Shown one piece after another: positions 10,146 to 36,257 of a stretch of DNA of 37,900 nucleotides; position 1 is the stretch's first letter; each line of letters opens with the position of its first letter. The translations under genes were made by a program, and so were the position numbers. This DNA is from a bacterium. GTDB lineage: Bacteria; BMS3Abin14. The notes below the pieces were generated by a model. It worked only from the letters and a program-made list of their open reading frames with translations. It was not told the origin of the DNA and did not search any database. The DNA lies in NCBI GenBank assembly GCA_029210965.1, contig JARGFZ010000005.1, positions 1 through 37,900 of the forward strand, in the 5' to 3' direction.

Positions 10146-10506
10146 TTTCCTAACCTCCTCGTACGGTTTTTGTTACCCTCCGCCCCTTCGATTCCCTCGG
10201 GAGCCCGCTTCCACCACATGGGGAGACGGGCACCACCCACCGGACCTGGGGCGTGCGTAATAGTTAAACAGTTTTGCTTAACAGAAATCGGCAATAGTGG
10301 CAAGGTTCTTTTGACAGTTTTGTTTTGCAGTTCTTTCTTTGCAGTTCTTTGCAGTTCTTTGCCGAGTTCTTTGCCGAGTTTGTTAAGCAGAACGCAGGAC
10401 GCAGCACACAGAACGCAGTAGAAGAGCGCAGTTCCTGTTTAGGCGTCGGATTTGAACGCAGAGTACGTCCTGAGCAAGCGTAGCGCGTCGAAGGACGTCC
10501 TCTGCG
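10146..10506. other. Leader of the rpsB operon and repeat-rich gap
   Basis: No gene. The part nearest rpsB (10160-10255) is GC-rich and can fold on the minus strand; for example GCCCG/CGGGC closes a 29-base hairpin and GCCCC/GGGGC could enclose it. This would suit an S2-type autoregulatory leader, but I cannot match a known motif. 10332-10384 is a stutter of (T)TTGCAGTTC/TTTGCCGAGTTC units, 10395-10418 is a 24-base word found again, reversed, at 17729-17752, and 10466-10503 carries a GTCCTTCGACGCGC...GCTCAGGAC-type dispersed word on the minus strand. No confident promoter was found. Confidence 0.5.
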
Positions 10507-19790: not shown

Positions 19791-21557
19791 TTATTCATCC
19801 CCTCCACCCTCTTCAGCTTTCCTGCCTCCAAAGAGAAGGTGCAGCCTGGTCCCGCCACCTTCGGCCAGATCAGCCCAGATGGCACCGTGGTGCCTCTCCA
19901 TGATGGCTCTTGCGATGGACAACCCCAGCCCGATCCCCTCAGGCTTTTCGGTCAAGATATCGCCCAATTGCCTGAACTTCTCAAAGATCAGGGGAATATC
20001 CCTCTCCTTCATGCCTTTGCCATGGTCCCTGACCGTCAACTCCACCCACCCTCGCATCTCTCCCGTAAGTGCCAGGGATTCTCTGCCCACAGCGTAATCA
20101 GGAACATGGGGGAGACTGCCGTGCCAGAAAGCGTTGATCTCCACAGAAGAACCCTCCGGTGAAAACTTGACGGCGTTTTCCAGGATGAGTCCCATTGTTC
20201 GTTTAAACAACCTCACGTCGCAAATGAACTCGGCATCCTGAACCTCTTCCAGAACCATCGAAACGTTCCTGTCCTTCAACCTGCCGTCAAACTCCTGGAC
20301 CGTTCCTTCAACAAGGATCTTCGCGGGGTTAGGCTCAAGTTTCCATGGAACCCGCCCTGCCTCAAGACGAAAGAGCTCCAGGATCCTTTCCACAAGATAG
20401 TTCAGGTGGTTCGCTGAACCTTCCAGGCGGCCTATGAACTCGGCAAGGCTGTCGGTCTCTCCCTCAAGATCCAGGGTGGGAATAAGACTTGCGAAGCCAA
20501 TGATGGATGTGAGGGGTGTCTTGAGCTCATGGGACAGGTTGAGGATCAGCTCCGTCTTGTCCTTGTCCAGTCGCACCAGCTCTTCATGAGCATCTCTGAG
20601 CGCCTCGGCCTTTTGCTCCAGATCGAGGAAAAGTCTCGCGTTGTCCATGGACATGGCAACCTGGGAGGCCATGGTGTAGAGCAGATCGCGGTCCGATTCC
20701 GTGAAAGACTCTCCGTTTATCTTATTGTTGGCGTTGAGAACACCCAGAACGCGGTCACCCCTTACGAGAGGCACACACAGCGCCGATTGTGTCGTGTACT
20801 GAGCCTTGAAGGAGGAGGGCCTGAACCTTTCGTCCTTGCTGATGTCGTTGATAAGAAGAGGTTCACCGGTCTGGGCAACATGGCCGGAGATCCCTTTACC
20901 CAGGGGGACAGTGACCTTCCCGATAACCTCTTCCGGCAGCCCCATCGCCTCAACAAGCCTGAGGACCTCCCCCTCCATCACCATGAGGGAGGCTGTTTCC
21001 ACCTTAAGAGTATCCGAGATCGCCGCGATGGTTCTTTTGAACAGGCTCTGGAGAATTTCCTTGCTGGATGCCTCTCCGAGCATCCGGAGAGTGAGAAGTT
21101 CCCTGGCCCACCTGTCGGAACGGGCTACGATCTTCTCTTTTTCCGTGGAGATCTCATGGTCGATGACCGCGCTGCTGACCGCAGACAGCAACTGCACGGG
21201 TTTGAACGGTTTGGAAAGGAAATCGCTGGCTCCGTTACGGATCATCTCCACCACGTTATCAAAGGATCGCACGCCGCTGACACAGATCACAGGGGTCAGC
21301 CTGTCGTGCATGCGCACCTTCTGAAGCAGTTCAATACCTGACATTTCCCCCATCACAATATCGGTAACGATCACCTTAAACCTGTTACCTTTCAGCAGCT
21401 CAAGGGCCTGCTCGCCGCTGGTCACTCCCTGAGCCTCGAAACCGCCGTCGGACAGGATGTCAACCATCTGCCGCAGGAAGAACCGGTCGTCGTCCACGAC
21501 GAGAATGCTGGGTCTGTTGTTGTCGGTTGATTCGGTCATACTTGCTGGCTCACTCAC
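19791..21557 (-). CDS. Response regulator-GAF-histidine kinase hybrid
   Basis: A cytosolic signalling protein of 588 residues with no membrane segment. Residues 14-130 are a receiver domain with D66 as phospho-acceptor (VTDIVMGEMSG) and K116. Residues about 160-310 are a GAF sensor domain. Residues 333-400 are HisKA with H343 in LSHELKTPLTS. The end (about 440-580) is a HATPase with N-box ENAVKFSPEG, G-boxes DHGKGM and EGIGLGLSIA. The receiver at the N-terminus suggests it takes its signal from another kinase, and the GAF may bind a small ligand. It ends 2 bases before argJ. The start may be the GTG at 21557 or the ATG at 21539; neither has a strong ribosome binding site. The target is unknown. 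Confidence 0.9.
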   Translation of the reverse strand: MSEPASMTESTDNNRPSILVVDDDRFFLRQMVDILSDGGFEAQGVTSGEQALELLKGNRFKVIVTDIVMGEMSGIELLQKVRMHDRLTPVICVSGVRSFDNVVEMIRNGASDFLSKPFKPVQLLSAVSSAVIDHEISTEKEKIVARSDRWARELLTLRMLGEASSKEILQSLFKRTIAAISDTLKVETASLMVMEGEVLRLVEAMGLPEEVIGKVTVPLGKGISGHVAQTGEPLLINDISKDERFRPSSFKAQYTTQSALCVPLVRGDRVLGVLNANNKINGESFTESDRDLLYTMASQVAMSMDNARLFLDLEQKAEALRDAHEELVRLDKDKTELILNLSHELKTPLTSIIGFASLIPTLDLEGETDSLAEFIGRLEGSANHLNYLVERILELFRLEAGRVPWKLEPNPAKILVEGTVQEFDGRLKDRNVSMVLEEVQDAEFICDVRLFKRTMGLILENAVKFSPEGSSVEINAFWHGSLPHVPDYAVGRESLALTGEMRGWVELTVRDHGKGMKERDIPLIFEKFRQLGDILTEKPEGIGLGLSIARAIMERHHGAIWADLAEGGGTRLHLLFGGRKAEEGGGDE

Positions 21558-21582
21558 TCGCTTCGCTTGAGATCCATGTTAA

Positions 21583-21619
21583 TCTCAAATCTCAAATCTC
21601 AGATCTCAGATCTCAGATT
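21583..21619. repeat. TCTCA(A/G)A stutter repeat
   Basis: Five or more near-copies of the 7-base word ATCTCA(A/G) in the leader of the histidine kinase gene. A diverged form of the same word occurs before ileS (36225-36248). Confidence 0.7.
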
Positions 21620-21647
21620 CAACCCAAGGTTCAATATTGATAAAATC

Positions 21648-21795
21648 GCAAAAAGTCCAATCCGGGACTTTTCGCTCCACGGAAAGGGAAAAGCGTCGTT
21701 TTCCCTTTCCTTACAAATCAATGACTTACAGTGAGAGTCATTGATTTGGGCGCCCCGCGCGGGGCGCATTGATGACTTTTTGCAAAGTCATCAAT
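21648..21795. repeat. Cluster of five hairpins between secA and the kinase gene
   Basis: Five inverted repeats in 148 bases: AAAAGTCC/GGACTTTT (21651-21672, with extra pairs outward); a perfect 12-bp stem GGAAAGGGAAAA/TTTTCCCTTTCC (21681-21710); a perfect 12-bp stem AAATCAATGACT/AGTCATTGATTT (21715-21747); GCGCCCC-GCGC-GGGGCGC (21750-21767); and a perfect 12-bp stem ATTGATGACTTT/AAAGTCATCAAT (21768-21795). Neither strand shows a T-run after them, so they are not simple terminators. No gene fits the stretch. It is probably a dispersed intergenic palindromic element or a structured RNA. Confidence 0.85.
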
Positions 21796-21836
21796 ATTAA
21801 AAAAGCTATTGTCAGTTTATTACTTTTGATTTTCTC

Positions 21837-21902: not shown

Positions 21903-24566
21903 TTAGGCATTTACTCCACAGCACTTCTTGTACTTCTTCCCCGAGCCGCAGGGACACGGTTCGTTCCTGCCCACCTTGCGGCCGTCCCTTTTTACCGTTT
22001 GTTGTACCGGTTGCCCCTGCCCCGGAGCCGGCGCCCTGGGCTGGCCCGGGGAGAAGGCATCCTCCACGGGGCCCCTCGTCATGGAGAAGTGCTGCTGTCG
22101 CCTCTGGGGGATATTCTCCTCCTCAGCCATCTGGATAAGGAAAAGGATACGGATCGTATCCTCCCTGACCCTGTCCATCATGGCCTCGAACATTGCGTAA
22201 CCTTCCATTTTGTACTCTGAAAGAGGGTCTTTCTGGCCATATCCCCTCAGCCCGATCCCCTCCCTGAGCTGATCCATGCCGTACAGATGATCCTTCCACT
22301 GCCCGTCCAGGACCTGCAGGAAGAAGTTTTTCTCCAGGATCCGCATCGTCTCGGGACCAAACTCAGCCTCCCTGGCCGCGTATTTCTCCCTGGTGAGGGC
22401 CAGGAGCCCCTCTTCAAAGGCATCCACATCAGCTTCGAAAGAGCTCATCGTGGGTTTGAAACCGAAAACGGCAAAGAAGCGATCACCCAGCCCATCCAGA
22501 TCCCATTCGTCGTAGTGAGCCTTGGGGTCGATATGGAACTGGACCATTTCCTCGATCGTCTCCTGGACCAGATCATCGATCCATTCAGACAGATTTTCCG
22601 TTCCCAGGATCTCCCTTCTCTGCCCGTAAACCGATTCGCGCTGCATATTCATGACATCGTCGTATTCGAGGATGTGTTTCCTGATGTCGAAGTTGTGGCC
22701 CTCGACCCTCTTTTGGGCGTTCTCAATGGCCTTGGAAACCATCCTGTTCTCGATCTCCTGCCCCTCAGTCATCCCCAGCCGCTCCATGAGTCCGGAGATC
22801 CGCTCGGAACCGAAAATGCGCATGAGATCGTCTTCCAGGCTCAGAAAAAACCTGGAACTGCCCGGGTCCCCCTGACGACCAGACCGTCCCCGCAGCTGGT
22901 TATCGATCCTCCTGCTCTCATGTCGTTCTGTCCCCAGGATATGCAGGCCTCCCGCTTCCAGGACGGAGATGCGCTCCTGGTCGCAAAGTTTCTGCATCTC
23001 TTCCAGGACCTTCACGTACTCCTCCGAATCGGTGTCCTTGACTTTGTGCTTTGCAAGAAAGCCCGGGTTGCCTCCCAACACGATATCCGTTCCCCGTCCC
23101 GCCATGTTGGTGGCCACGGTTACGGCACCCGCCCTTCCCGCCTGGGCCACAATATCAGCCTCTCGTTCATGGTGCTTGGCGTTGAGGACGTTGTGAGCGA
23201 TCCCCTCCCTTTTCATCATCCTGGAGAGAAGTTCGGAACTCTCGATGGAGGCGGTGCCCACCAGAACAGGTTGGCCCCGGTGCTGGCAGTCGGCTATCTC
23301 GTCAACAACCGCATTGTACTTCTCCTTCACGGTGCGATAAATGAGGTCCGGGTTATCCACGCGGATCATGGGCATGTTGGTAGGGATCACAGCCACATCC
23401 AGATTGTAGATGTTCTTGAACTCAGCCGCTTCCGTATCCGCTGTCCCAGTCATACCTGCCAGCTTGTCATACATGCGGAAGTAGTTCTGGAAGGTGATGG
23501 ACGCAAGGGTCTGGTTTTCGCTCTCGATCTTGACCCCCTCTTTAGCTTCCAAAGCCTGATGCAGCCCATCGCTGTAACGTCTTCCAGGCATGAGACGACC
23601 GGTAAATTCGTCCACGATGAGCACCTGGTTGTCCTTGACGACATAATCCACATCCCTTTTGAAAAGAGCGTGGGCCTTTAACGCCTGTTGAACGTGGTGA
23701 TTGATCTCGATAGTTGCCGGATCATAGAGGTTATCGACGCCCAGAAGCTTTTCTACGCGCTCAACACCTTCTTCGGTGAGAACAACGCTCCTGGCCTTCT
23801 CGTCCTTTGTAAAGTGAATCTCCTCCTTCAGGCGGGGCATGATGGTGTTAATATTGTAGTACTTGTCAGTGGAGTCCTCCGCCAGACCGGATATGATGAG
23901 AGGGGTACGGGCTTCATCCACCAGGATACTATCGACCTCGTCCACGATGGCATAGACCAGATCCCTCTGGACATAATCCTCCAGGGAGAATTTCATATTG
24001 TCCCTGAGATAATCGAAGCCGAACTCGTTGTTTGTCCCGTAGATCACATCGGCCCCGTAAGCCTTTTTTCTCTCCAGGTCTCCCATGTCGTGCTGAATAA
24101 CACCAACTTCCAGGCCGAGGAATCTATAGATAGTCCCCATCCATTCGGAATCCCTGCCAGCCAGATAGTCGTTCACTGTCACCACGTGAACACCGGCCCC
24201 TGTAAGGGCGTTGAGATATACCGGAAGAGTAGCAACAAGGGTCTTTCCCTCCCCGGTTTTCATCTCGGCGATCTTTCCCTGGTGAAGAATTACCCCGCCC
24301 ACGATCTGAACGTCGAAATGCCTCATACCCAGAAGCCTTACGGATGCCTCCCTTACCACAGCGAAAGCCTCCGGAAGCAGGTCGTCCAGCGTTTCTCCCT
24401 GCTTCAGGCGTTCCTTGAACTGACCTGTTTTTCCTTTCAGGGCAGCATCATCCAGGGCCTGCATGGAAGGTTCCAGGCTGTTTACACTCTCCACAATGGG
24501 AACGATCCGTTTAAGCTCCCTTTCGTTTGTAGTACCGAATATTTTTTGAGCGATAAGTTTGATCAT
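21903..24566 (-). CDS. secA: Protein translocase ATPase SecA
   Basis: Motor that drives unfolded preproteins through SecYEG. At 887 residues it has the normal length. Walker A is GEGKT (105-109), the DEAD box is [16 protein letters not shown], and the helicase motifs [10 protein letters not shown] and [12 protein letters not shown] follow. The end is the SEC-C zinc motif [13 protein letters not shown] (C871, C873, C882, C883), which binds SecB and phospholipids in known proteins. The ATG has AGGA upstream. It is preceded by a possible promoter at 24669-24696 and followed by the hairpin cluster. Identity is firm. Confidence 0.98.
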
Positions 24567-29404: not shown

Positions 29405-29515
29405 CAATGGTGAAAAGTGAACCGTGAACCGTGAATAGACAAAACCAACAGCTACAATGTTTTCACCCTTTTACCTTTTACCGTTCACTGTTCACCGTTC
29501 ACCGTTCACACATCG
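29405..29515. repeat. GTGAACC/TTCACCG stutter repeats, inverted, between nadK and recN
   Basis: 29415-29436 holds GTGAACC-GTGAACC-GTGAA units and 29482-29509 holds TTCAC-TGTTCACCG-TTCACCG units, so the two parts are inverted copies of the same 7-base word and could pair into a large stem. No gene is present. Confidence 0.7.
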
Positions 29516-34464: not shown

Positions 34465-34513
34465 AAATCAGGAGTCAGGAGCCAGGAGTCAGGAGCCGGA
34501 ATCTAGGAGCCAG
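34465..34513. repeat. CAGGAGT/CAGGAGC stutter repeat before xseB
   Basis: Near-tandem 7-base units: TCAGGAG, TCAGGAG, CCAGGAG, TCAGGAG, CCGGAATCTAGGAG. The reverse complement of 21864-21900 uses the same words, including AGGAGCCGGAATC. No gene is in this 218-base gap. Confidence 0.7.
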
Positions 34514-35814: not shown

Positions 35815-36060
35815 GATTTTGCGGCAATGAAGGGGACAGTACCTGTTCCGACCCAGGTTCCCAGCGATCCGGGGGCGGTGAAAGCCCGGAAACCGGTGGG
35901 ACAGAGAAGATCACCCCTGAGCCGTCACGCCGAAAGTTTGATGTAGGCGTGACCGGGTGCGCCCGTTACAGCGCCAGAGGGGTCCGGCCGCACTGACAGT
36001 GTGCCCGGGCAACCGGGGTGGTACCGCGGAATAATCCGTCCCTGGAGGGGCGGATTTTTA
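35815..36060 (+). promoter_or_regulatory. T-box riboswitch leader, isoleucine-type, upstream of ileS
   Basis: Binds uncharged tRNA and switches an antiterminator against a terminator. Stem I: CGGC (35822-35825) pairs with GCCG (35921-35924), AGGGG with CCCCT, and CTGTTCC (35843-35849) with GGGACAG (35898-35904). The internal loop has AGTA (35838-35841) on one side and GAAGATCACC on the other. The ATC at 35910-35912 is the specifier for isoleucine. The apical part AGCGATCCGGGGGCGGTG then AAAGCCCGG fits the AG bulge and distal loop. A perfect 8-bp stem (35924-35931 with 35946-35953) follows. The T-box sequence GGTGGTACCGCG is at 36017-36028, and the terminator stem ATCCGTCCC/GGGGCGGAT then TTTTTATTT at 36034-36063. 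It matches the gene that follows. Confidence 0.93.
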
Positions 36061-36065: not shown

Positions 36066-36142
36066 GGACGCAGGACGCAGGACGCAGGACGCAGGACGCA
36101 GGACGCAGGACGCAGGACGCAGGACGCAGGACGCAGGACGCA
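36066..36142 (+). repeat. Tandem array of eleven GGACGCA heptamers
   Basis: Exactly eleven uninterrupted copies of the 7-base unit (77 bases), directly after the T-run of the T-box terminator and before ileS. In some frames it stays open and yields an artefactual repetitive peptide. Confidence 0.95.
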
Positions 36143-36257
36143 GAAAAGACAAAACCATATACTGACAGCTGTCAACTGGACATTCTTGGATTTTGGACCC
36201 TGGATTTTAAATTCAATCTGAAATCTGGGATATGAGATCTGAGATTGTGAGTTAATA

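Follow-up and report, generated by a model that had tools for sequence, protein, structure and literature searches.

A probable miniature transposon of five covarying hairpins, with ends like those of an IS1182-like insertion sequence, between secA and a histidine kinase gene

Many described bacterial MITEs are strongly folded, and bcr1 is a repeated element of ~150 bp with a conserved stem-loop structure and mobile behaviour. The element described here resembles bcr1 as a ~150-bp mobile stem-loop repeat, in a different host. For Bcr1 of the Bacillus cereus group, lengths of 147-167 bp are listed (PMC2267715). The pneumococcal RUP inserts at TA, presumably by means of the IS630-Spn1 transposase (PMC2229807). 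Our element is likewise small, gene-free and structured, with a target duplication and terminal repeats matching an insertion sequence (IS) (PMC2229807), but it has 6-7 bp AANNTT-like sites, an IS1182-like DUF772/DDE transposase as its counterpart and five separate hairpins. With Correia/NEMIS of Neisseria, whose transcripts are structured, it shares a length of ~155 bp alongside shorter forms, multiple copies and terminal inverted repeats (TIRs), whereas Correia/NEMIS has TA termini, a stem joining the 5' end to the 3' end instead of a string of local hairpins, and an unrelated sequence (PMC2229807). Caulobacter CIR and Yersinia YPAL are also small intergenic repeats with internal inverted repeats, but CIR has two arms and no TIR, and YPAL has duplications of 3-26 bp and inverted repeats that are internal (PMC2229807). 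The bacterial MITEs Correia/NEMIS, RUP, CIR and YPAL (PMC2229807) and bcr1 (PMC2267715) are the closest counterparts of the element, which has the features by which a MITE is recognised in sequence. It differs from them in its partner family, its target and its independent covarying hairpins, the plan of which recurs in unrelated sequence.

We analysed a window of 37,900 nucleotides, the whole stretch from position 1 of contig JARGFZ010000005.1 (assembly GCA_029210965.1). The element lies between secA (21903-24566, minus strand) and a response-regulator/GAF/histidine-kinase gene (19791-21557, minus strand). The initial annotation had described five back-to-back hairpins at 21648-21795 as far beyond chance, and this holds: the minimum free energy of that region is -87.4 kcal/mol compared with -45.3 +/- 3.8 for shuffles (z = -11, 0/200). 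The hairpins are consecutive, but alignment of the copies sets the boundaries of the 154-bp unit at 21639-21792, and the earlier extent had clipped nine bases on the left. We likewise recovered the reported 18-base GC palindrome (hairpin H4) and the TGACT words in H3 and H5. The element contains no long open reading frame and no terminator on the + strand, in keeping with the annotation, which had seen no ORF and no terminator tail; on the minus strand, H1 gave a weak terminator-like hit, roughly at shuffle level. Searching the window with Rfam covariance models left the element unmatched. The sole match was a T-box leader elsewhere in the window (35818-36046, + strand, 116.7 bits).

Table 1. 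Coordinates of the element, its parts and related repeats (window positions unless a locus is named).
Feature	Location	Strand	Remarks
MITE, full copy, 154 bp	21639..21792	+	CM R1 176.9 bits over 1-153; multi-copy
Left target-site duplication AATATT	21633..21638	+	Direct repeat just outside GAT
Right target-site duplication AATATT	21793..21798	+	Matches left copy
Left terminal inverted repeat GATAAAATCGCAAAAAGTC	21639..21657	+	Alignment A1; IS has like end
Right terminal inverted repeat, minus reading GATGACTTTGCAAAAAGTC	21774..21792	-	Alignment A1; G009 IS end GATGGCTTCGCAAAAAGTA
H1	21648..21675	.	8+2 bp; left TIR core pairs with inner inverted copy
H2	21681..21710	.	Perfect 12-bp stem plus loop-closing pair
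H3	21714..21748	.	13 bp plus one G-T; double-sided changes in 7 pairs
H4	21750..21767	.	7-bp stem, palindrome GCGCCCC-GCGC-GGGGCGC; 18-base self-complementary GCGCCCCGCGCGGGGCGC
H5	21771..21792	.	Right TIR self-folded; 9 bp, or 12 bp including flanking repeat
Second MITE type	L051 ~1300-1520 (G000:C1:211006-211105); L283 (G000:C1:194287-194389); L109 1320-1486		Similar ends, other stems; G370-related
Heptanucleotide arrays	21582-21618, 36066-36143, 29480-29509, 10387-10418, 34468-34513 and others

The element is repeated many times in its own genome (G000, 3.19 Mb in 157 contigs). Among 173 candidates we scored at least 40 full-length copies, those other than the window copy being 91-97% identical to it, and the right-end pattern occurred at least 78 times with up to one mismatch, compared with 0 for the reversed control. 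The phylum-level host lineage is represented by one family with 12 species genomes. A covariance model trained on 56 copies matched 11 of the 12, at 13 to about 150 places apiece; these counts (154 in G000) are capped by the number of candidates scored, and a palindromic copy may have been counted again on its reverse strand. The carriers include CP070698 (bin582), CSMAG_1715, SZUA-178 and PFL40, and the model found zero copies in the complete genome G003 of the same family. Searched at the DNA level, 87 genomes sampled from other families gave no match to the window element.

Copies sit in many unrelated gaps and in either orientation, which does not support the other suggestion of the initial annotation, a non-coding RNA, as one specific to the gap between secA and the kinase gene. 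That gap holds no copy in G001, the closest congener (secA 96% identical in DNA), though it is too divergent to give a clean empty-site alignment. In G007 the gap is occupied by an element whose flanks differ and which seems to have inserted independently. MITE copies from another genus (L022 and L033 in G006) reach 97% identity to the window copy. As the secA proteins are just 79% identical, this suggests that the element has been transferred horizontally.

Both termini are inverted repeats of the pattern GAT....TCGCAAAAAGTC, and the aligned copies are sharply bounded by GAT...ATC. Directly outside these ends, 28 of 82 copies carry an exact 6-bp direct repeat, compared with 2.7 expected from random pairing of left flanks with right flanks. 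The duplication consensus is AANNTT, with 7 or 8 bp in a minority of copies, and sites deviating from it deviate identically on both sides (AAACAA/AAACAA, ATTCTT/ATTCTT, AATTAT/AATTAT). Tandem copies in L050 have a single duplication-like spacer common to both. Element length is narrow, mostly 151-155 bp, and the five-hairpin form predominates, while some copies have gained or lost hairpins. Matching duplications also flank length variants of 46 bp (the ends only; L036), 102, 144 and 265-271 bp (with extra hairpins). The ends are thus what mobility requires. Long forms of about 240-271 bp with extra hairpins (L054 1250-1520, L173 6962-7226, L177 985-1260) resemble an element that is inserted within, or fused to, a second, diverged one.

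The candidate partner is an IS of ~1.9 kb with a DUF772/DDE transposase, found with matching ends in G006, G009, G010, G146 and G370. In G006, the transposase P0001 (DUF772 + DDE_Tnp_1) begins just inside an end reading aatatt followed by GACGGCATCGCAAAAAGTATC; among its relatives, the G010 copy starts GACGGACTCGCAAAAAGTATC and the G009 copy starts aaggtt followed by GATGGCTTCGCAAAAAGTATC. Ends from three genera of the phylum (GACGGCATCGCAAAAAGTA, GACGGACTCGCAAAAAGTA and GATGGCTTCGCAAAAAGTA) agree with the MITE ends at 15-17 of 19 positions in their best matches, and of 2000 shuffled stretches of 150 bp just one attained 15. Within the phylum, IS copies are few and broken: the G006 copy is without ~220 bp that are present in G009, the G009 copy is spread over contigs and that of G010 is a 5' fragment. 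Outside the phylum, one copy in G146 reads AAAGCT, GACGGGGCGGCAAAAAGTC ... GTC, AAAGCT, with a 6-bp duplication, and a second reads AAATCTA, GACGGG... ...GTC, AAATCTA, with a 7-bp duplication, which demonstrates directly for this transposase family that it duplicates 6-7 bp at sites like those of the MITE. The proteins match DUF772 and DDE_Tnp_1 in Pfam, that of G370 also DDE_Tnp_1_6 above its cut-off. We call the IS IS1182-like and not a member of IS1182, since scores against the NCBIfam IS1182 model (NF033551) were 116 and 159 bits, below the cut-off of 270. Beyond the ends, the interior of the MITE has nothing in common with the IS, so the MITE is not its plain deletion derivative.

A search of G000 for the IS gave no relative at E <= 1e-5, though the assembly consists of 157 contigs. 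Because the partner is missing from this assembly, mobilisation in trans is something that we infer. An IS1182 copy in the same genome (G000:C29, L177 1468-2925) has unrelated hairpin ends of its own and was rejected as the partner; it adjoins the long MITE variant in L177. Where TIR cores in G000 continue with atypical bases, they belonged to the long variant of L054 and a second element type, with no transposase, and solo TIRs in L171, L169, L049 and L109 had no adjacent transposase ORF. A TIR beside an IS1182 remnant in L025 is a fusion in a dead fragment, and we discounted it as evidence. Viral contigs contained no relative of the partner transposase, and plasmids only distant ones.

Taken together, the element is short, without coding capacity and multi-copy, has TIRs and a target duplication, and has an autonomous element with matching ends. 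It is very probably a non-autonomous MITE, which the partner IS transposase would move and whose hairpins would be kept as nucleic-acid structure. The mover would most likely be an enzyme from the matching larger transposon: the transposase of the ~1.9-kb IS1182-like IS (DUF772 + DDE_Tnp_1 / DDE_Tnp_1_6) would recognise the 19-bp ends GAYNNNNTCGYAAAAAGTC in trans and move or copy the element into AT-rich AANNTT-like sites; the stagger would be 6 bp, and 6 (sometimes 7-8) bp would be duplicated.

The initial annotation had called for a search for compensatory changes and for further copies; the element proved covarying as well as multi-copy, the opposite of the unique, non-covarying sequence that would have spoken against its reading. 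Among the 56 copies, 93.2% of paired cells are standard pairs, compared with 37-53% after the partners had been shifted by 1-3 columns. Sixteen pairs changed on both sides, compared with 7.3 +/- 1.6 in shuffles (0/500), a control that takes no account of relatedness among copies, and every one of the five stems contributes. For example, pair 11-36 of H1 goes from C-G to T-A in 18 sequences, and in H2 pair 49-66 occurs as GC, CG, UA and AU (six pair types by itself) and pair 56-60 as UA in 29 and CG in 25.

A second family has the same plan. In G370, from another phylum, a 1937-bp IS carries a 607-codon transposase open frame, 60% identical to P0001 (the genome-search alignment shows one TAA, and the frame as read has none). 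This genome gave 49 matches to the covariance model, and the copies that we read are 153-bp elements with five hairpins in a row, present in dozens. One of their ends is identical to the end of the 1937-bp IS at 19 of 19 positions, and most have exact 6-bp duplications (CTCTTT, AATCTT, AATAAT, AAGATA, ATGATT and others). BLASTN gave no match between the interior of the G370 element and the window element. The second type also has relatives in G000, G011 and G103; among them the letters of the H3 and H4 stems are replaced at many positions in both arms, and the unpaired spacer TTCCACCCCCACCCC is nearly constant. We tentatively propose, at somewhat less than even probability, that a MITE superfamily shares the five-hairpin string as a conserved, functional body plan, in which stems can be completely replaced from copy to copy and from phylum to phylum without a change in order, number, length or spacers, the hairpins being required for transposition or for harmless residence in transcribed regions.

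The covariation of such a MITE might instead be a mutational by-product, with template switching during replication copying one arm onto the other and the hairpins having no function. Perfect palindromes are known substrates for template switching, and the 46-bp copy, which has lost most hairpins and kept its duplications, indicates that not all hairpins are needed to move. Against template switching, loop length is conserved as well, and so are the order of the hairpins, the length of the element and its unpaired spacers (such as that of the second family); the plan also recurs in interiors of unrelated sequence. We consider this explanation unlikely, if the strongest of the alternatives.

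A dispersed structured RNA, transcribed from the copies and acting as a cis-regulatory or small RNA for neighbouring genes with mobility secondary, would fit the five stems covarying across genera, the strong fold and the intergenic position. Set against this are the missing Rfam match and two signs of symmetry. With loop-closing pairs set aside, stems contain 39 G-T and 83 A-C combinations, thus no G-T excess, and neither strand is clearly favoured; among 40 copies in the host genome, both neighbouring genes lie on the element's strand in 13 and on the opposite strand in 12, a tally based on crude ORF calls. We therefore regard the RNA as very improbable. The lack of a G-T preference and the unbiased gene orientation argue for a structure that matters on both strands and not for one functional RNA strand. 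In the MITE reading, the hairpins would be kept since they work as nucleic-acid structure on either strand: transcripts running through an insertion from either side may stay folded and harmless, or the hairpins may assist the transposition complex, and we favour the two about equally.

The initial annotation had left the class at 'REP/MITE-like'; copy number, TIRs, target duplications, absence from the G001 gap and the matching IS uphold the MITE half, while a REP/REPIN-like palindrome mobilised by a RAYT enzyme (a Y1 tyrosine transposase) is highly improbable, since, for all the numerous intergenic palindromes in both, REP/REPIN are 20-40 bp units, mostly GTAG- or CGTC-tagged and without a long TIR and target duplication (PMC3116915, PMC3733652), and here there are 6-7 bp duplications, 19-bp TIRs and a matching DDE-type IS.

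The MITE connects a repeat that is abundant between the genes of an uncultured phylum-level lineage with a specific transposase family that is present in other phyla too, and provides an example of miniature transposons with internal hairpins evolving by compensatory change, in which the role of internal structure becomes testable. It is also a warning for annotation: five-hairpin arrays of this kind are to be read as transposons, not as RNAs specific to a gene.

Many intergenic gaps of the window also contain heptanucleotide tandem repeats (ATCTCAG, GGACGCA x11, ACCGTTC, TCAGGAG and others), which resemble short tandem repeats known from cyanobacteria. The secA-kinase gap of G001 has different 7-base arrays.
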